Source: Peptococcaceae bacterium
GTDB lineage: Bacteria; Bacillota; Desulfitobacteriia; Desulfitobacteriales; Syntrophobotulaceae
Assembly (NCBI GenBank): GCA_009782825.1
Contig: WRII01000001.1
Location: 1-64,000 of the forward strand
DNA length: 64,000 bases
Direction: 5' to 3'
Shown here: positions 10,143 to 25,205 of the stretch, in pieces
Numbering within the stretch: the stretch's first letter is position 1
Layout: the number at the start of each line of letters is the position of its first letter
The notes under the pieces: model-generated
The model's input: only the letters and a program-made list of their open reading frames with translations
Database searches by the model: none
Told to the model about the DNA's origin: nothing
Position numbers and translations under genes: made by a program

Positions 10143-11141
10143 TTACTTCTTCTTAGGCAACCAACTCATCATCCCCCGCAGTTCTTTGCCGACACCTTCG
10201 ATAGGATGGTTTTCGTCCCGTTTGGCCATAGCATTGAAGGAGGGCCGGTTGACTTGGTTTTCCAGGAGCCATTCTTTAGCGAAGTGACCGTTTTGGATTT
10301 CTGCCAGCACTTTTTTCATCTCTTGGCGAGTGTCTTCGGTAATGATGCGGGATCCGACAGCCATATCACCGTATTGGGCTGTGTCGGAAATGGAGTAGCG
10401 CATCCAGGAGATGCCGCCTTCGTACATGAGATCAACAATGAGTTTGAGCTCGTGCAGGCATTCGAAGTAAGCGCTTTCCGGCTGGTACCCGGCTTCAACC
10501 AATGTGTCGAATCCGGCGCGTACCAATTCGGTCATGCCGCCGCAGAGCACAACTTGTTCGCCAAATAAATCGGTCTCGGTTTCTTCTTTAAAGGTGGTAT
10601 CAAGAACACCGGCCCGGGTGCAGCCGATCCCTCTGGCGTAGGCCAGGCCTATTTGGTAGGCGTTGCCGGAGAAGTCCTGGTGGACGGCAATGAGGCCGGG
10701 GACCCCCGCTCCTTCTTCGTAGGTGCGGCGTACCAGGTGGCCGGGGCTTTTGGGCGCGATCATGATGACATCGACATCGGCAGGGGGTACAATCTGGCCA
10801 AAATGGATATTGAAACCGTGAGAGAAGCAGAGGATTTTGCCGGGGGTGAGATGAGGCGCGATCTCTTCACGGTAGACTTTGGCTTGCTGTTCGTCGGGAA
10901 GAAGAATTTGGATCAGATCGGCTTGGGCCGCGGCTTCAGCTACGGTCATGACAGTTAGGCCGGCTTGTTCGGCGAGCTGCCGGCGCGGGCTGGCCTGGCG
11001 CAGGCCCACGATGACATTGAGGCCGGACTCTTTGAGGTTCTGGGACTGGGCGTGGCCTTGGCTCCCCCACCCCATGACGGCGATGGTTTTGTTCTGCAGA
11101 AGGCTGAGGTTGGCGTCGGAATCATAGTACATTTTTGCCAT
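10143..11141 (-). CDS. ilvC: ketol-acid reductoisomerase (NADP+), class I
   Basis: IlvC converts acetolactate (or aceto-hydroxybutyrate) to the dihydroxy acid by Mg-dependent alkyl migration and NADPH reduction, in valine, leucine and isoleucine synthesis. The 332-residue length fits the short class I form. Visible: the NADPH loop [40 protein letters not shown], and the metal-binding helices [19 protein letters not shown] and [20 protein letters not shown]. It has an AGGAGAAAAACC ribosome site before the ATG. The 235-base gap upstream shows no T-box or other leader that I can recognise. No other ilv or leu genes are nearby. Confidence 0.97.
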
Positions 11142-11375
11142 TGGTTTTTCTCCTCATAACATAAAAATTTGAAGGGGACTTGCTTCCTCTCAGGGATCTC
11201 AGGATGATGTTTCCCCGGGGAATTGTTGTCCCATATTCATAATTGTTTCCTCTATGTTACACTGTTCCAGGGGGAATCGCAAGATCCGTTAATCCTATCC
11301 GTTAATCCTATCCTATCATTTCATGATTGCTCATTTTATGATCAATCATGATCAATCATTATTAATTAATCATCA

Positions 11376-15928: not shown

Positions 15929-16005
15929 GGGGATGGCTTGGGGATGGCTTTATCCCTCGCCGGCCCCTAAATATTGGCCTCATACATGAGAGGTATATGG
16001 TATAC

Positions 16006-16040
16006 GGGATATGGGATATGGGATATGGGATATGGGATAT
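16006..16040 (+). repeat. (GGGATAT)5 heptamer repeat ahead of the DUF6320 gene
   Basis: Five exact tandem copies of GGGATAT run directly into the GGGGGGTG ribosome site of the following gene. The unit is not a multiple of three, so slippage would alter both the leader and any upstream-initiated frame. This is the second five-copy repeat in front of a ribosome site in this window (compare 366-395). Confidence 0.85.
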
Positions 16041-16052
16041 GGGGGGTGCACC

Positions 16053-16718
16053 ATGAAAGTTTGCGAAAAATGTGCGGTATCAGTATCGGGCAACCCGGAA
16101 AAATGTCCGCTATGTCAGAGTCCGCTCACAGGGGAAAATCAGAACTCATATGAAACCTTTCCGTTTATTCCACTGGCCAGACACAAGCACAGCCTGCTTT
16201 TCCGCCTATTGCAGTTAGCCTCGGCGGCTGTCGTGATTGCTGCTCTGACTGTCAATGGAATGCTGCCTCAAGGGGGGTTCTGGTCGCTGTTTGTGCTGGC
16301 GGGGGTAGCCTGTGCCTGGCTCAGCCTGACCATTGCCATCCGTAAGCGGCATAATATTCTGAAAAACTTGGCCTATCAGGTGACGGTTATCGGCATTCTG
16401 TCCATTTTATGGGATGTTTTTACGGGTTGGCACGGCTGGTCAGTTGATTTTGTCATTCCGATTGTCTTTGTGTCCGCCATGATTGTCACAGCTATCCTGG
16501 CCCGCATCCTGACAATGCCCGTGGGAGCTTATATGATTTACAATTTCCTGCTTATGCTCTATGGAATCATTCCGGCTTTCTTTGTGCTGAGCGGGTTGAG
16601 CACCATCATTCTCCCGTCGCTGCTGTGTGTGGCGTGCAGCCTTTTTTCTCTCGCCGCACTGCTGATCTTTGAAGGCAGAAATATGGCGGAGGAGTTAAAA
16701 CGCCGTTTGCATTTGTAG
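16053..16718 (+). CDS. DUF6320 domain membrane protein with N-terminal zinc ribbon
   Basis: A 221-residue protein. Residues 1-30 carry two cysteine pairs (KVCEKCAVSVSGNPEKCPLC), a rubredoxin-like zinc ribbon, followed by six hydrophobic segments from about residue 45 to 210 (for example LASAAVVIAALTVNGML and IPIVFVSAMIVTAILARIL). I recognise this arrangement as DUF6320, commonly encoded next to alcohol-acetyltransferase-like and esterase genes in Clostridia. I start at ATG 16053 because GGGGGGTG lies 4-5 bases upstream; the longer frame from 16011 would translate the heptamer repeats. The family function is unknown; a membrane partner for the acyltransferase is a reasonable inference. Confidence 0.8.
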   Translation: MKVCEKCAVSVSGNPEKCPLCQSPLTGENQNSYETFPFIPLARHKHSLLFRLLQLASAAVVIAALTVNGMLPQGGFWSLFVLAGVACAWLSLTIAIRKRHNILKNLAYQVTVIGILSILWDVFTGWHGWSVDFVIPIVFVSAMIVTAILARILTMPVGAYMIYNFLLMLYGIIPAFFVLSGLSTIILPSLLCVACSLFSLAALLIFEGRNMAEELKRRLHL

Positions 16719-17438: not shown

Positions 17439-17701
17439 TCACAATCTCGGGTCAACGGGCTCGCTCTCCAAAGCCAGCACTCCAAACACACACTCATGCA
17501 CCCGATACAAAGGCTCATTCCGCGCAAAGCGTTCCAACGACTCCATACCGAGGGCAAACTCATTCAGCGCCAGATTGCGTTTCTTTGATAACGAACGCTT
17601 TTTCAGCCGGGTCAAATTATCCTTCAGCATATACTCAGGTCCGTAGATGATGCGGAGATATTCGCGTTCACGGCACTTGACAGCAGGCTGTAATGGATCA
17701 T
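17439..17701 (-). pseudogene. C-terminal fragment of polynucleotide kinase-phosphatase (Pnkp)
   Basis: About 87 codons without a start, encoding LQPAVKCREREYLRIIYGPE, KKRSLSKKRNLALNEFALGM, and ending RVHECVFGVLALESEPVDPR followed by L and a stop. This is the conserved C-terminus of bacterial Pnkp, the three-domain RNA end-healing and sealing enzyme of the Pnkp/Hen1 RNA-repair system. The kinase, phosphatase and most of the ligase-like domain are absent; upstream of 17701 similarity ends abruptly. It is a relic, and no hen1 gene is present in the window. Confidence 0.75.
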
Positions 17702-17927: not shown

Positions 17928-17999
17928 ATGAGTATGGAGAACATCCAAACCAAAATCATTGTGACTGACGCCAACAACGGGAGAGGAGGTTGCCGCTGA
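17928..17999 (+). CDS. short leader-type reading frame ahead of the cell-wall hydrolase
   Basis: A 23-codon frame with a strong AAGGAGGGA ribosome site, beginning MSMENIQTKIIVTDA and ending GRGGCR. Its TGA overlaps the ATG of the hydrolase (TGATG). It could be a genuine leader peptide giving coupled translation, or the start of a gene replaced by the hydrolase. The stretch 17702-17927 otherwise holds only AT-rich sequence with no gene I can support. Confidence 0.4.
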   Translation: MSMENIQTKIIVTDANNGRGGCR

Positions 18000-20461
18000 T
18001 GATCAAATTAGCCAGCAGAATATTTAGACGCACAAATTGGTATGTCACCAGCGGCTTCGGGTATCGCAAAGTCAATAACGTACTCGAATTCCACAACGGA
18101 ACCGACTATGGAACTCACAAACAAAATTGGGAGCTCTATGCCATAGAACCGGGAACCGTCATCAGCTGCGGTACCGCCGGCGACGGCGCTAAATACATTT
18201 GGGTCAACTATCCGCGGCTTGGCAAGAAGCTATTGCATTATCATTTGGATCATATAGAAGTTGAAGCGGGAGACGAAGTCCAAGAAGGTACATTGCTCGG
18301 CAACGCCGGAGAAACAGGCAGCGCCAATGGGATACATTTGCACCTGGGTATGCAGCCAAGCGCCGCCAATATCTATGAAGATCCCCATGCATACGACTAC
18401 TACTATGCGAATGCCACGATGAATACAGATGCAACCGTTTATGGAGGACCCAGTACAACCCTGTATGCCCCCATCGGATCTGTTTTCAAAAAAGGACAAA
18501 TACAAGTTATCAACAAAGAAAATAACTTCTTCTTCATTCGTTACTGGACAGACAAAATAAAACTCAAGCGGGGATATGTTGATATTTCTCAAGTCACTAT
18601 CGATCCCCTCATCTCAATAGTGGATGTGACAAAGACCTTCAAGGGAAACAACAACCTTGTCTATCCGCAATCCACCCTTTATGCTGATACGAATATAGCG
18701 ACAGCCGCGACAATCGGAACTATATTGGAATTAGAGGGCGTCACTGAATTCACCCCGTCGGAAAACAATATGCACTTTATAGAAAATGGTACCCCCGAAG
18801 GGATCAAAAGAGGATACATTCAAGGCAGCGAACTGATCCGAAAAGAAGGAGGTTTAGCCATAGCGATAGCCTCCAGCGGAACCAACGTCTATTACACCCC
18901 CAGCCTCGAACATAAATCCGGCACAGTCGGCGCCAATGAGTATATAGCACTCCACCACACCGGCAGTACAGTCTCCTATATTGAATGCAACACCAAAAAC
19001 GGCAGAGCAAGAGGGTATGTGTCCAACAGCTCTCTGCAGCTCCTGGATACCGACAATGTTCCCGCACTGCCCGATTATACAGAAGAGTCCTGCACTCCCG
19101 CGGGTTTCTTGACAGTCTATTTCGGCCCCACAGAGAAGTACGCTGTGGTGGGATCGGTTAACCAAGGGGCAGTAGTGACACGGCTAAGTTCGCCAATACT
19201 CAATACAGGAGATTATTCGTTTATTCAATATTCAACAATGGAGGGGACCAAAAGAGGATATGTCTTTGCCTCAGGCTTAGTTCCAGTTGATCCGGTAAAA
19301 AAAGTTATTGGGATGCACTTTGAAAGATACTCTAAATCTTTAGAAGTTTTAGAGATGCAAGATATGTCTGATATTATAGCCAATACTCCAGAAATGGAGC
19401 TAATTAAAACTATCACAGATATAAGAGTCTATGGATACTCATTAGTTGGTTTAAAACGGCTAAACAATAAAACATCAACCAATTACCACAGTATTGAAAT
19501 GAAGGATGATAGGGCTATTGTCTCATTTGACACGATAAGTGAATTTAATTATTCTACTAATCTTGAGGGCGCATCTAGAATTCAAAACTCATTCAAAACA
19601 TCTCTAGTAAATAATGGGGGTTGGAAAATAGAAAAAATGGAGGTCGACGGAGATGATCTCTATGATGGGCTTGTTTTCAGGTTGGAACAAGGCGAAAAAT
19701 TTGGAATAGAACAAATCAAAGCAATAGGTGAACAATGGAAGCAAAATGTGAAAGATGGTCATAATCAAAGTCTTAGTCTTAGAAACGCTTCAAACATTAT
19801 GACCCCTGACAATGGAACAGAAGGTAGTATGAATATAAGATCAATAACTGTCGATTATGAACCTTCCAATGCTGTTAAATATGCAAAAGAGTATGCTATG
19901 AAAAGACATCCAGACTTTTATAAGGTTACTAAAGATGATGGTCAGTATGGTAATAATTGTACAAACTTTGTATCTCAATGCCTATGGGCAGGATATGGCG
20001 GTTGGGTGCCAGACAATGCGGCTCAAACAAGAACGAACATTACTAGAATGTTTAGAATGGTTTATGAAAATGGTACAGGATGGTTTGCAGGTTCGGGAGG
20101 AGGATCTGCATCGTGGGAAAATGCAGAACATTTATGGGATTATCTTTATAAGCACAATAAGGCATATGGACCCAAAGGTACAGCATATAATAATAATTAC
20201 CCATACTTTGGCCTAGTCCCAGGCAATCTGACTACAGGAAATATTATTCAACTTAGAACTGATCCAGACAAACCAGAAACATATACTCATTCTGCAATTA
20301 TTGTAGAAAAAAAGGGAAATGATGATTTTAGCCAAATATACTTGGCCCAAAATACAAATGATGACCCTAGCAGAAATATGTGGGAGCTTATAGTTGATTA
20401 TGGCGGCAACGAGTGCTTTGTGAGATATGTTACGCCTATCCCGTCGACCTTTGATAGTTAA
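17999..20461 (+). CDS. chimeric cell-wall hydrolase: M23 peptidase, SH3-like repeats, C-terminal amidase_6-type domain
   Basis: An 820-residue enzyme predicted to cut peptidoglycan. Residues 15-120 form an M23 (LytM-type) metallopeptidase: SGFGYRKVNN, zinc ligands His32 and Asp36 in FHNGTDYG, LHYHLDH, and His113/His115 in GIHLHLGM. Residues 135-435 contain about four SH3-like repeats, each with a YxxPS/GPTxxYxxxG core and an RGYV/RGYI end. A linker with no recognised fold follows. Residues 625-819 resemble the putative amidase (PF12671) domain, with Cys654 in NNCTNFVSQCLW and His764 in THSAIIV. ATG 17999 has GGAGG 9 bases upstream. No signal peptide is visible. From about 19270 the sequence becomes clearly AT-richer than the 5' part, suggesting a fusion of two sources. 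Confidence 0.82.
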   Translation: MIKLASRIFRRTNWYVTSGFGYRKVNNVLEFHNGTDYGTHKQNWELYAIEPGTVISCGTAGDGAKYIWVNYPRLGKKLLHYHLDHIEVEAGDEVQEGTLLGNAGETGSANGIHLHLGMQPSAANIYEDPHAYDYYYANATMNTDATVYGGPSTTLYAPIGSVFKKGQIQVINKENNFFFIRYWTDKIKLKRGYVDISQVTIDPLISIVDVTKTFKGNNNLVYPQSTLYADTNIATAATIGTILELEGVTEFTPSENNMHFIENGTPEGIKRGYIQGSELIRKEGGLAIAIASSGTNVYYTPSLEHKSGTVGANEYIALHHTGSTVSYIECNTKNGRARGYVSNSSLQLLDTDNVPALPDYTEESCTPAGFLTVYFGPTEKYAVVGSVNQGAVVTRLSSPILNTGDYSFIQYSTMEGTKRGYVFASGLVPVDPVKKVIGMHFERYSKSLEVLEMQDMSDIIANTPEMELIKTITDIRVYGYSLVGLKRLNNKTSTNYHSIEMKDDRAIVSFDTISEFNYSTNLEGASRIQNSFKTSLVNNGGWKIEKMEVDGDDLYDGLVFRLEQGEKFGIEQIKAIGEQWKQNVKDGHNQSLSLRNASNIMTPDNGTEGSMNIRSITVDYEPSNAVKYAKEYAMKRHPDFYKVTKDDGQYGNNCTNFVSQCLWAGYGGWVPDNAAQTRTNITRMFRMVYENGTGWFAGSGGGSASWENAEHLWDYLYKHNKAYGPKGTAYNNNYPYFGLVPGNLTTGNIIQLRTDPDKPETYTHSAIIVEKKGNDDFSQIYLAQNTNDDPSRNMWELIVDYGGNECFVRYVTPIPSTFDS

Positions 20462-20573
20462 CTACCAAGAGAATTAGCATAATTATTTGCACATAATTAC
20501 ACGTATGATTAAGGCGGTTGTAATTAAAAAATAATGTTACAATTGCCTTACTAAAACATAATTGGAAGAAGTA

Positions 20574-21260
20574 ATGTTAGTGAAAAAAAGTATTCGTATT
20601 TTATTTATTAGTATCATTTTATTTTTAATAGGTAGTAATAATGCAAATGCATCAGAAGATATTTTGTTTAGATTTATGCATAATGACCATGACGCTCTTA
20701 TTATTGGGACAGTCACCTCTATCGAAGATAACATTATGACAATCAAATCTATTGATAGGATTGTAAGCGCTTCCTCTATTAATAATAAAGAACAATTATG
20801 GTTTGATGAAGCATCATTTCCGCTTACTATTTATGCTCCTGAAAGATTTAATGTAGGTGATCATGTTATTGTATCATTACACAAAAAGGAGAAGGGGCTT
20901 TTTATTAGAAATGGATTGTATAAGGTATCTGGCACTGACTTCAGAACGCTTAAAGTAGAGCACCCCATATGTCCGGCAACAGGGACTATGCTTACTGATT
21001 TTGTGAATAGTGGCGGATTATATACACAATATTCAATAGGAGGAGGCGAAATCGTTACAAGATATTATCTTGGAGAAGAAACTGTTATTTATAATCATGC
21101 CGAGGCAATGGCATTAATTGATTCACAAAACGAGGAACCACAAAGCGAGAACCTGCAAAATGAAAACTCTAACCATATTATTAATATTATTGGAGGCAGT
21201 GCCTGTCTAGTAAGCCTTGTCATAGTGACTATCTTCATAATTAAAAAAAAGAACGTCTAA
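20574..21260 (+). CDS. exported, membrane-anchored protein (tandem paralogue 1)
   Basis: A protein of about 228 residues: N-terminal signal peptide (KKSIRILFISIILFLIGSNN, cleavage likely after NANA), an extracellular beta-rich domain (HDALIIGTVTSIEDNIMTIK, then FNVGDHVIVSLHKKEKGLFI), an acidic linker, and a C-terminal transmembrane helix (IGGSACLVSLVIVTIFI) with a KKKNV tail. It should sit outside the cell, anchored by its C-terminus. It follows the cell-wall hydrolase and is repeated in part at 21346. No family recognised; protection against or control of the hydrolase is conjecture from position. Confidence 0.75.
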   Translation: MLVKKSIRILFISIILFLIGSNNANASEDILFRFMHNDHDALIIGTVTSIEDNIMTIKSIDRIVSASSINNKEQLWFDEASFPLTIYAPERFNVGDHVIVSLHKKEKGLFIRNGLYKVSGTDFRTLKVEHPICPATGTMLTDFVNSGGLYTQYSIGGGEIVTRYYLGEETVIYNHAEAMALIDSQNEEPQSENLQNENSNHIINIIGGSACLVSLVIVTIFIIKKKNV

Positions 21261-21345
21261 CAAGCCTCGTTAGTATGATTAAGGTGGTTGTAATAACAAG
21301 AAATAATGTTACAATTGTCCTGCTGGGAAATAACTGAAGGAAGTA

Positions 21346-21603
21346 ATGTTTATGGGAAAAATTATTCGCATTTTATTTATTAGTATCATATTGATTTTAA
21401 TATGTAGTAATAATATAAATGCAGCAGATACTTTATTTAGATTTATGCATAATAACCATGACGCTCTTATTATTGGAACAGTCATCTCTATTGAAAATAA
21501 TATTATGACAATCAAGTCTGTAGATCGCATTGTAAGTAGTGCATCTATGGATAAAAGAGAGCAGTTGTGGTTTGATGAAGCATCATTCCCACTCGATGTA
21601 TAA
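21346..21603 (+). pseudogene. truncated tandem paralogue of the exported protein
   Basis: The first 85 residues closely match the gene at 20574, with signal peptide IIRILFISIILILICSNNIN and shared block HDALIIGTV; both copies also share upstream sequence including GTTACAATTG. After WFDEASFPL the match stops and a TAA follows 2 codons later, 3 bases before the end of the IS3 element. The remainder of the gene is not found on the far side of the IS, so the insertion was accompanied by a deletion, or the tail was lost separately. The product would lack the outer domain and membrane anchor. Confidence 0.8.
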
Positions 21604-22010
21604 AGTGGCCACCTTTGTCAAGACAATTTTTTAGGGTTATAAAAGATAGTGGTCACTCCTTTCAATGTGGTGTTATGGTAATGTGGAAATCCAGAGCCGG
21701 CTTGCCGGCGGCTTGCAAGCCCAAAGGTACATGAACATAGTTTAGTTCTAAATGGGGAGATTGTTATCAACAACAAGGTCATCCCGCCGTCGTCGCTGTC
21801 CTGTGGGTATGTGGGTAACATTGCACGGTATTCCTTCGTTGTCGCGGTTGCTGTAGCGCAATGTTATCCACATATCCACAGCCGCGCTTGCTTTGGAATC
21901 CGAGTACCCGACTTTGACTAAACTGTTTGTACCTTTCCCATCACCTCCCATCCATTCTTTCTTCATCATCCTGTGACACAGACTTCGTTTTAGGATCAGA
22001 GGCCGTTCTC

Positions 22011-22865
22011 TCAAGCTTCAAGTTGGTTGGCCGTGTTGCAGTATACCTCAAATGGTATCTGGTAACCGAGGGACTGATGGAGCCTCTTGGTGTTGTATTT
22101 GATAAAATATTCGTTAAGACCCCTGCGAAGTGCTTTTGGTGTATCGTAGTCCTTAATGTAGATGTCTTCGTATTTGACTGTTCTCCATAGCCGCTCCGTA
22201 AAGATATTATCCATACAACGGCCCCGGCCGTCCATGCTGATTCTCACCCCCTTGTTGAGCAAAGTGTTTATATAATTGTTCCCTGTGTACTGGCTGCCTT
22301 GGTCGCTATTCACGATGTGAGGCGTGGCTGTAGCTAATGCTTTCTCCAAAGCATATACCACAAAATCATCCTCAAGGGTGTCCGATAACTCCCATGACAC
22401 CACATACCTTGAATACCAGTCCATGTATGCCACAAGGTACATGAATCCTCTCTGCATACGGATATAGGTTATGTCCGTGCCCCAGATATGGTTGGGGTAG
22501 GAGGCTGTCACATTCCTCAACAAGTATGGATATATCTTGTGCTCGGGGTGTGGGGCGGAGGTTTTGGGCTTCGGGTAAATCGCCTCAATACAGAGTATTC
22601 GCATATATCTGGCTACCGTAGGGCGGCTTATCTTATAACCTTGTCTCAACAACTCCTCTCTGATCCTTCTTGCACCATATACGGGGTTTTCCGTATAGAT
22701 TTCATCCATGGCGTTCAGAATTGCCAGTTTTTTGGCCGATACAGGCCGTTTCTTGTAGTACAGACTGCTCCGGTTCAGCGAGAGCATATCGCATTGGGAC
22801 AATATGCTGTATTCGCTGTCCAGAGGATCTATCATCACCATCCTTTGTTCCCGACTATACGTCAA
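22011..22865 (-). CDS. IS3-family transposase OrfB (DDE integrase domain)
   Basis: A 284-residue catalytic part of the transposase. The HTH_21-like region NPVYGARRIREELLRQGYKI precedes the DDE core: first Asp in HIWGTDITYIRMQRGF, second Asp in HIVNSDQGSQYTG, and Glu in DNIFTERLWRTVKYE, ending with the typical YFIKYNTKRLHQSLGYQIP. It overlaps orfA by 11 bases in the -1 frame at a run of nine A residues, the usual site for programmed frameshifting to give OrfAB. All catalytic residues are present, so the element may still be active. Confidence 0.93.
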   Translation of the reverse strand: MTYSREQRMVMIDPLDSEYSILSQCDMLSLNRSSLYYKKRPVSAKKLAILNAMDEIYTENPVYGARRIREELLRQGYKISRPTVARYMRILCIEAIYPKPKTSAPHPEHKIYPYLLRNVTASYPNHIWGTDITYIRMQRGFMYLVAYMDWYSRYVVSWELSDTLEDDFVVYALEKALATATPHIVNSDQGSQYTGNNYINTLLNKGVRISMDGRGRCMDNIFTERLWRTVKYEDIYIKDYDTPKALRRGLNEYFIKYNTKRLHQSLGYQIPFEVYCNTANQLEA

Positions 22866-23142
22866 TTCCAGATTTTTTTTTCAGCCAGTTAAACTTTGCG
22901 GTCAGTTCGCCTATTTGAGCATATAATTCCTTGACTACCTCTTCATGCTCTTTTATGAGAATATCCCTTCTTCTCTTGTCCCCAAGCAGTTCGGGCATCC
23001 CTTCAATTGCGGCTTTTCTCCACTGTCTTAGCTGGGTTGGATGTACGTCGTTTCTGCTGGCCACTTCATTGATCGTAGCTTCTTCCCTGAGAAGTTCGAG
23101 TACAACTCTTGCTTTGTATTCTGGTGTGTATTTTTTCTTCAT
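22855..23142 (-). CDS. IS3-family transposase OrfA (helix-turn-helix)
   Basis: A 95-residue protein beginning KKKYTPEYKARVVLELLREE, then the recognition helix region EVASRNDVHPTQLRQWRKAA, and a C-terminal leucine-zipper segment (EVVKELYAQIGELTAKFNWL). It binds the IS ends and, by -1 frameshifting on the A9 tract near its end, is extended into OrfB. ATG 23142 is near the right terminal repeat. Confidence 0.93.
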   Translation of the reverse strand: MKKKYTPEYKARVVLELLREEATINEVASRNDVHPTQLRQWRKAAIEGMPELLGDKRRRDILIKEHEEVVKELYAQIGELTAKFNWLKKKSGIDV

Positions 23143-23419
23143 GGGTTCAGTTTACCACATATCTTTTATGGGGCGGTTTTGCTGTCTAGATTCCTTTGAC
23201 CATTATAGTTCGCACAAGCAAAACATACCAGAAATTTTCATATTCTGTGCCATGCATATAATTTTTGCACTCCCCTTTCTCTAAATATCTACTAAATATC
23301 TACTAAATATCTACTGAGAATTCATATAACTTCCTTCTGTTTTCTATTTTCACACAGCCCACTTTAAAAAACATCATTAAAACTTCAAGAAAATCTCAAA
23401 ATTTTGTTAATGGGGAAAC

Positions 23420-23897: not shown

Positions 23898-25205
23898 ATG
23901 CAAAGAATTCCCATGACGACGCCCCTTGTAGAAATGGATGGCGACGAGATGACGCGGATCCTGTGGCAGATGATCAAAGATAAATTGATCTTGCCTCATG
24001 TTGACCTGAAGGTTGAGTATTATGACTTGGGGCTTCTGAGCCGCAACGCTACGGATGATCAAATAACCGTTGACGCGGCCAACGCCACAAAAAAGTACGG
24101 TGTGGCTGTCAAGTGCGCCACCATCACCCCCAACGCTCAGCGTATGGAGGAATATCCTCAGCTGAAGAAGATGTGGGCGAGTCCTAACGGAACTATTCGC
24201 TCGATTTTGGACGGGACTGTTTTCCGTGTTCCGATCACAATTGACAAAATCAAACCTGTAGTAAAAAACTGGGAGGCTCCCATCACCATTGCCCGCCATG
24301 CATATGGCGATGTGTATAAGGGTGTGGAAATGGTGGTGAACGGTTCCGGGACGGCCTGCCTTGTTTTTGAGGGCAAAGACGGAGAGACACAGCGGCATGT
24401 GATTTGTGAGACATCTGAGAGCACGGCCGATATGGCGGATATGACGGATATGACTGATATGGCGGATATGACTGATATGACGGGTATGGCTGATATGACG
24501 GGTCTGGGATCAGTTATTCTGCAAGGGGTTCACAATACGGAACGTTCTATTCGCTCCTTTGCCAAATCCTGTTTCCAATATGCCTTGGATACGAAACAAG
24601 ATCTGTGGTTCAGCACCAAGGATACCATTTCTAAAGTCTATGACGGCTTTTTTAAAGAAGTATTTGAGAATGAGTACAATGCCCATTACAAGGAACAGAT
24701 GGACGCTTTGGGACTGGAGTATTTTTACACGCTCATTGACGACGCGGTGGCCCGGGTCATGAGATCCAAAGGCGGATTTGTCTGGGCTTGCAAAAACTAT
24801 GATGGTGATGTGATGAGCGATATGATTTCTACAGCCTTTGGCTCTTTGGCTATGATGACTTCGGTTTTGGTTTCCCCTGACGGCCCGGTGGAGTACGAAG
24901 CGGCCCATGGAACCGTGACGAGACACTACTATCGCCACCTTAAAGGAGAGAAGACCTCGACCAATCCCATTGCCACCATTTTTGCCTGGAGTGGGGCTCT
25001 GCGCAAAAGAGGGGAATTGGACGGTATCGGGGATTTGACAGTTTATGGGGACGCGCTGGAAGCTGCGTCTTTGGAGACGTTGAATGCCGGGATTATGACC
25101 CAGGACTTGGTGGGGCTGGTGGAGGATGGCAGTTCCCCGCGGTCTGTGACGTCGGAAGAGTTTCTCGATGAGATTGCCCGCCGTTTGGCGGAGAAATTGC
25201 GCTGA
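23898..25205 (+). CDS. icd: NADP-dependent isocitrate dehydrogenase, homodimeric eukaryotic-like type, with repeat insertion
   Basis: Oxidatively decarboxylates isocitrate to 2-oxoglutarate, producing NADPH. The 435-residue protein belongs to the type II (eukaryote-like) group: TPLVEMDGDEMTRILWQMIK at the start, ATITPNAQRMEEYPQLKKMW, SPNGTIRSILDGTVFR (isocitrate-binding), ACKNYDGDVMSDMISTAFGS (metal ligands), and EYEAAHGTVTRHYYRHLKGE (NADP site). Residues 176-203, in the clasp region, contain a low-complexity insertion of repeated DMT/DMA triplets not found in relatives, encoded by a 9-bp tandem repeat. Active-site motifs on both sides are intact. It shares a transcript with the BlaI-like gene. 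Confidence 0.93.
   Translation: MQRIPMTTPLVEMDGDEMTRILWQMIKDKLILPHVDLKVEYYDLGLLSRNATDDQITVDAANATKKYGVAVKCATITPNAQRMEEYPQLKKMWASPNGTIRSILDGTVFRVPITIDKIKPVVKNWEAPITIARHAYGDVYKGVEMVVNGSGTACLVFEGKDGETQRHVICETSESTADMADMTDMTDMADMTDMTGMADMTGLGSVILQGVHNTERSIRSFAKSCFQYALDTKQDLWFSTKDTISKVYDGFFKEVFENEYNAHYKEQMDALGLEYFYTLIDDAVARVMRSKGGFVWACKNYDGDVMSDMISTAFGSLAMMTSVLVSPDGPVEYEAAHGTVTRHYYRHLKGEKTSTNPIATIFAWSGALRKRGELDGIGDLTVYGDALEAASLETLNAGIMTQDLVGLVEDGSSPRSVTSEEFLDEIARRLAEKLR
24429..24500 (+). repeat. in-frame 9-bp tandem repeat within icd
   Basis: Eight units of consensus GATATGRCK (for example GATATGGCG, GATATGACG, GATATGACT), encoding DMA/DMT, with one GGTATGGCT variant. Because the unit is three codons, copy-number change keeps the reading frame. 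The location corresponds to the clasp segment of the dehydrogenase. Confidence 0.9.

Follow-up and report, generated by a model that had tools for sequence, protein, structure and literature searches.

The 64,000-nucleotide stretch analysed here (the window; positions 1 to 64,000 of contig WRII01000001.1, Peptococcaceae bacterium assembly GCA_009782825.1) carries a gene for a chimeric cell wall hydrolase, directly followed by a gene for an exported, membrane-anchored protein. Comparison with related loci leads us to consider that, on balance, the hydrolase probably belongs to a genus-specific family of polymorphic effectors that derive from an endolysin and are accompanied by anchored immunity proteins. 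A fuller version of this proposal, which we hold to be plausible although tentative, is that a prophage endolysin may have become a polymorphic-toxin delivery module, with each C-terminal type served by its own anchored immunity protein and the immunity protein of one, helical type formed in part from the toxin's own C-terminal domain; the enzyme would breach or hold on to a rival's wall, and killing would fall to the exchangeable C-terminal domain. The hydrolase gene is made up as follows (coordinates are those of the window).

17999..20461, + strand: chimeric effector-like hydrolase, 820 aa, without a signal peptide
17999..19283, + strand: conserved N-terminal module common to the family, about 428 residues, ending where similarity to sibling genes stops
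18089..18358, + strand: Peptidase_M23 domain, aa 31-120 (Pfam PF01551, E 2.1e-12)
18419..19282, + strand: SH3-like repeats (Pfam PF08239, SH3_3)
19284..20461, + strand: exchangeable AT-rich C-terminal module, in which Amidase_6 is preceded by a domain resembling that in exported relatives
19856-20398, + strand: Amidase_6 domain (PF12671), aa 620-800 (E 1e-25; 91 bits against a curated cut-off of 23.2)
17928..17999, + strand: 23-aa remnant of a conserved small open reading frame (ORF) of about 80 aa, with some 130 nt deleted between 17976 and 17981 relative to L015

The initial annotation had proposed, from the letters alone, a fusion of an M23 peptidase, SH3-like repeats and an amidase_6-type domain that lacks a signal peptide, and Pfam matches within the single 820-residue ORF bear this out. 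The zinc ligands of the M23 domain are in place by residue check (H32, D36, H113 and H115), as are the catalytic Cys and His of Amidase_6 (C654 and H764). The SH3_3 match is marginal in the window protein (best stretch aa 371-427, E 5e-6, 26.9 bits against the Pfam cut-off of 27) and lies above the cut-off in the sibling proteins L054, L056, L061 and L062. The N-terminus is not hydrophobic, and no Sec signal was found in the hydrolase sequence. A break in base composition within the gene, also noted at the outset, was confirmed by GC content overall and at third codon positions (GC3): residues 1-430 resemble the surroundings (GC 0.47, GC3 0.505; window mean 0.477), whereas the remainder is AT-rich (GC 0.36, GC3 0.27). 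The gene starts with ATG, and a TGATG overlap joins this start to the stop of the truncated upstream ORF; the corresponding small ORF, overlapping the start codon of the family gene, is intact in L015, L016, L054, L055, L057, L059 and L064.

Within this family, C-termini are exchanged at a fixed junction. When the window gene is compared with seven full-length or near full-length siblings (L015, L016, L054, L055, L056, L061 and L062), DNA similarity ends at 19264-19293 every time, and pairwise identity profiles drop from 70-99% to background at about nucleotide 1300 of the gene. Two genes of genome G002 have N-modules that are 86% identical and C-termini that are unrelated. Five C-terminal types can be distinguished, namely Amidase_6 (the window gene), sortase (L016; PF04203, E 2e-12), DUF4434 (L056; PF14488, E 4e-20), a helical domain of about 420 aa (L054, L055 and L062, with fragments in L059) and a fifth type without an assigned domain (L060 and L061); for the last of these, Pfam and PDB searches with the L061 C-terminus gave no match, and a 'lysozyme-like' label is by eye only. 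Amidase_6 also occurs standalone in relatives, and the helical domain is found on other long N-termini, in L122 (G002) and in L123 and L124 (the window's genome). A profile of the helical domain gave chance-level matches only against PDB sequences, and its predicted structure (pLDDT 40) was too poor for a fold search. At one locus (L126/L055, G001:C38) the helical C-terminal domain of a family member is interrupted by an inserted element with recombinase- and relaxase-like features.

The N-module itself recurs across three congeneric Peptococcaceae genomes. The window's genome (G000) contains the N-terminus of about 430 aa again on contigs C4 (84% identity) and C18 (78%), together with an M23-only relative also on C18, and two congeneric genomes contribute seven and five more copies, partial ones counted. 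The congener records are metagenome-assembled genomes (MAGs) of Peptococcaceae, isolates Nt197P3bin107 and bin79, which we take to be termite-gut genomes on the basis of the isolate naming and a termite MAG survey (PMC7024585). Outside the genus, a scan of named genomes found only an M23-level relative, beside a holin-like ORF in an uncultured Bacilli genome. The only match in a search of a viral collection was a prophage of the genus itself (L065/L077), in which a protein with M23 and PG_binding domains adjoins a Phage_holin_5_2 gene; the family M23 domain is about 50% identical to this endolysin, which also has, by eye, a possible short counterpart of the small upstream ORF. Phage records gave only endolysin/M23-type matches, at 29-36% identity, and neither the cassette nor the exported protein had a match among plasmids. 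Because its closest relative is a prophage M23 enzyme beside a holin, the family M23 module is, as judged by sequence relationship, of prophage-endolysin type. The earlier suggestion of an 'endolysin-like' enzyme therefore holds as far as the M23 module's origin is concerned; it does not extend to the window locus, which has no holin, and no phage genes were seen around 14.6-25.2 kb of the window.

Downstream of the family genes, an exported or anchored protein recurs. At eight of the ten readable loci the product of the next gene begins with a hydrophobic or lipoprotein-type N-terminus; elsewhere in the window's genome this applies to 21% of ORFs (29 of 139). Homologous partners of the helical type make up five of the eight, and counted by C-terminal type the proportion is four of five. 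The helical-type partner family (A3) occurs only in this genus, adjoining the helical domain, in G001 (C87, C8 and C38) and G002 (C13 and C43), and linkage of effector and partner is at its strongest in this type (for example L066:8001-10634 with 10663-11229). The partner persists on C7 of G001 despite a broken effector gene there, and on C13 of G002 it is followed by a second, truncated copy, as is the exported gene of the window. Its C-terminus is homologous to the last 78 or so residues of the effector (49% over 78 aa, E 7e-19), which suggests protection either by a domain decoy or through a shared docking domain. The partner family also tracks the helical domain when this sits on other N-termini: the helical-domain proteins L122, L123 and L124 are each followed by membrane-anchored relatives. 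The DUF4434 gene (L056) is followed by a lipoprotein gene and then by the remnant of a leucine-rich repeat (LRR) protein, which matches the LRR protein located 3' of the fifth C-terminal type in the other species (62% over 77 aa). Such orphan or remnant partner genes, of which L057, L056 (the LRR remnant) and the end of contig C36 provide examples, would fit a sequential replacement of effectors with immunity genes kept, as found for the type VI secretion system of Vibrio (PMC5361080); immunity proteins of LRR and NTF2-fold, and secreted or transmembrane (TM) immunity against surface-acting toxins, have likewise been described (PMC3482391).

Two further clusters of the window's genome carry the helical domain. 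In L123 (G000:C49:688-7501) a 589-aa protein without a TM segment precedes four tandem membrane-anchored paralogues of 415-422 aa, which carry a domain common to the 589-aa protein and the helical C-terminal type and may constitute an immunity (or receptor) array. In the L124 cluster (G000:C26), a helical-type protein of 598 aa is accompanied by two partners with membrane anchors and by several small helical proteins, of which one matches DUF5344 weakly, an arrangement that resembles effector loci of the type VII secretion system (T7SS), although EssC was not found in the window's genome.

The partner of the window hydrolase lies in the following setting.

20503..20573, + strand: upstream segment duplicated along with the exported gene, with a TTGTAAT...TTACAAT motif (direct repeats D2/D5 with 21273-21345)
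20574..21260, + strand: exported, C-terminally membrane-anchored protein of 228 aa, candidate immunity protein
21346..21603, + strand: truncated second copy of the exported gene (75% aa identity over about 84 aa)
21601..23207 (approx.), - strand: insertion sequence (IS) element with a two-ORF transposase (ORFs 22011-22865 and 22855-23142), IS3-like by eye
17443..17694, - strand: 3' end left over from a gene found intact on contig C36 (252 bp, 96% identical at the DNA level to L017:10423-10674)

The exported protein has a signal-like N-terminus and a hydrophobic C-terminal helix followed by KKK, and no Pfam family covers it. Its gene (GC 0.33, GC3 0.27) continues the composition of the hydrolase C-terminus, to which it is equal in GC3. 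The tandem unit measures about 770 bp, with 82-84% DNA identity between the copies and about 70 bp of common upstream sequence included, in agreement with the initial annotation of two tandem exported, membrane-anchored copies, the second truncated, in the same AT-rich sequence. The truncation is IS damage, since the second copy stops at an IS that is multicopy in the genome: its sequence is present at ten other places, many of them contig ends, and the element's boundaries were drawn from these matches. The missing part of the second copy was not found on the far side of the IS. At the end of contig C36, a 3' piece 99.5% identical to the exported gene lies beside the intact version of the gene whose remnant occupies 17443-17694; the full-length version of that gene is a 432-aa ORF in L003 with, by eye, the look of a Pnkp-type end-healing enzyme/ligase. 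Unlike the helical-type partner, the exported protein has no detectable sequence relation to the C-terminus of its hydrolase. A profile of its family gave chance-level matches only against PDB sequences, its predicted structure (pLDDT 48) was too poor for a fold search, and promoter and terminator scans returned nothing above background. A TIMP/OB-fold was also considered for the exported protein and stays unproven.

In the mechanism that we infer from these features, and with it toxicity, target, immunity role and route of export, the constant module of endolysin-type M23 peptidase and SH3 wall-binding repeats would serve for delivery or wall engagement, and a recombined cassette would bring in both the variable C-terminal domain and the gene downstream of it. 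That domain is, in the window copy, a predicted Amidase_6 peptidoglycan amidase or peptidase; Amidase_6 has been described as an effector amidase class that includes Tae3 (PMC10318531). As the protein has no signal peptide, it would probably leave the cell by lysis or by some non-Sec route, after which the SH3 repeats would bind the wall of a competitor and the M23 and Amidase_6 domains would cut it. The exported, anchored protein would lie on the outer side of the producer's membrane and there inhibit the activity of the C-terminus, so sparing carrier cells. Delivery by a T7SS is not supported for the window's genome, in which the ATPase EssC reached only below-cut-off scores; the N-terminus of the M23 family has no LXG or WXG domain, and PADLOC gave no result. 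Several T7SS EssC genes are present in each of G001 and G002.

A number of findings weigh against the effector reading, for the family as well as for the window pair. No secretion system was identified for the family proteins; the gene following the sortase type encodes an Amidase_2 protein without a hydrophobic N-terminus; sortase and DUF4434 domains are, to our knowledge, unusual as toxins; and the conserved small upstream ORF is no longer intact in the window copy. With respect to the pair, the initial annotation had envisaged an effector with an anchored protector, and whilst the general idea gains from the combination of one N-module, unrelated C-termini and mostly exported or anchored next genes, the specific pairing lacks support from linkage at the family level, and the distribution that the initial annotation had named as refuting it, an exported family mostly without such hydrolases, is largely what a search of the neighbours showed. 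In nine relatives this family occurs in single copy at nine loci, of which none (0/9) is near a hydrolase within the available flanks, nor was it found near any of up to 38 Amidase_6 loci examined, some of them duplicates. The closest Amidase_6 relatives, which have the same preceding domain, are exported proteins, and a different small exported protein follows them (DUF4829 in G023, similar in G054, G032 and G021). Because the exported family and Amidase_6 are thus unlinked in relatives, an immunity role in the window pair is only proposed, and that the exported protein is the cognate immunity protein of the window hydrolase appears possible while falling somewhat short of probable. The same distribution suits an arrangement in which the hydrolase is an effector and the exported protein, unrelated to it, merely travelled with the AT-rich insert, as do the gap of 112 nt between the two genes (30 nt or less, or an overlap, in several siblings) and the exported gene's own duplicated upstream segment; such a passenger is likewise a possibility to be held open at less than even weight. 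Arguing for a cognate pair, and against a passenger, are the foreign composition common to both genes, a position that matches the cognate-looking genes of siblings, the duplication of the exported gene and the separately kept 3' piece on C36, which recalls an orphan immunity gene.

Two explanations without antagonism also merit consideration. The family could consist of housekeeping autolysins or wall-remodelling enzymes, possibly sporulation mother-cell lysins, that shuffle catalytic C-termini, their exported neighbours being regulators or passengers of donor DNA. Every recognisable C-terminus is a wall or surface enzyme (sortase, Amidase_6 and the glycosidase-like DUF4434), sortase and DUF4434 are not classical toxins, and the exported family stands alone in relatives. 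Mother-cell lysins of sporulation can lack signal peptides. The Bacillus subtilis Amidase_6 protein YhbB is listed as sigE-regulated (PMC10653849). Recurrent, type-specific anchored next genes and orphan remnants would nevertheless not be expected of such enzymes, nor would a helical domain shared with other N-termini or the fast turnover of C-termini between close copies, and we regard a housekeeping role as rather unlikely. Domesticated or decaying prophage lysis genes, in which the remnant of an M23-SH3 endolysin captured secreted-protein genes by accident, would account for the close M23 and PG_binding relative beside a holin (L065/L077) and for the broken state of several copies (L055, L057, L059 and L063), as well as of the upstream ORF and second exported copy in the window. 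There are however intact long ORFs of five C-terminal types, catalytic residues are kept, the SH3 repeats are absent from the prophage enzyme, and the junction is fixed across three species, all of which argues that function has been maintained; decay of this kind seems improbable.

The proposed effector family shares with the polymorphic toxin systems of Zhang et al. 2012 (PMC3482391) a constant N-terminus, C-terminal swaps at a sharp junction, a usual partner gene and remnants, and with Neisseria MafB a lineage-specific N-terminus; a signal-less endolysin-type N-terminus of M23 and SH3 is, however, not a delivery module described in the former, where M23 is unmentioned. The MuF toxins of temperate phages (Jamet et al. 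2017, PMC5576092) similarly join a phage-derived, conserved carrier to variable C-termini in Firmicutes, although their carrier is a capsid/packaging protein and here it is an endolysin, with most copies outside any recognisable prophage. The LXG/T7SS effectors of Bacillota likewise have C-termini that are polymorphic and partner genes next to them, and the helical domain here also sits on other long N-termini, but the M23 family lacks LXG and WXG domains and the window's genome lacks an EssC over the cut-off. Secreted bacteriolysins (class III bacteriocins) such as lysostaphin and zoocin A combine M23 with an SH3-type wall-binding domain, such that a bacteriocin-like use is possible; they differ from the family in that the latter has no Sec signal, an additional C-terminal enzyme, variable C-termini and an anchored partner. 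The genus prophage endolysin has PG_binding_1 repeats and an adjacent holin; family members instead carry SH3 repeats and variable C-termini, and no holin accompanies them. Within the open-access literature, an endolysin-based M23 and SH3 carrier appears new relative to the delivery modules of PMC3482391 and distinct from MuF. Should the effector reading be correct, such a carrier would join the known polymorphic-toxin delivery modules and would show how a prophage lysis gene can turn into a bacterial weapon, offering modular wall-targeting proteins with natural antidotes and testable effector-partner pairs in an uncultured termite-gut genus.

A similar layout with another enzyme was noted in relatives (L023, L024 and L026, in the same order), where SH3-repeat proteins without a leader have an M14 carboxypeptidase domain at the C-terminal end; a lipoprotein gene comes next in two of these genomes, and one locus is near a holin-like gene. 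Elsewhere in the window, an isocitrate dehydrogenase-like ORF (23898-25205) contains a low-complexity insertion, TADMADMTDMTDMADMTDMTGMADMTG, derived from short tandem repeats, and a short tandem repeat at 15974-16100, GYGIWDMGYGIW, with which a membrane protein ORF begins, is probably an intergenic repeat read into frame.

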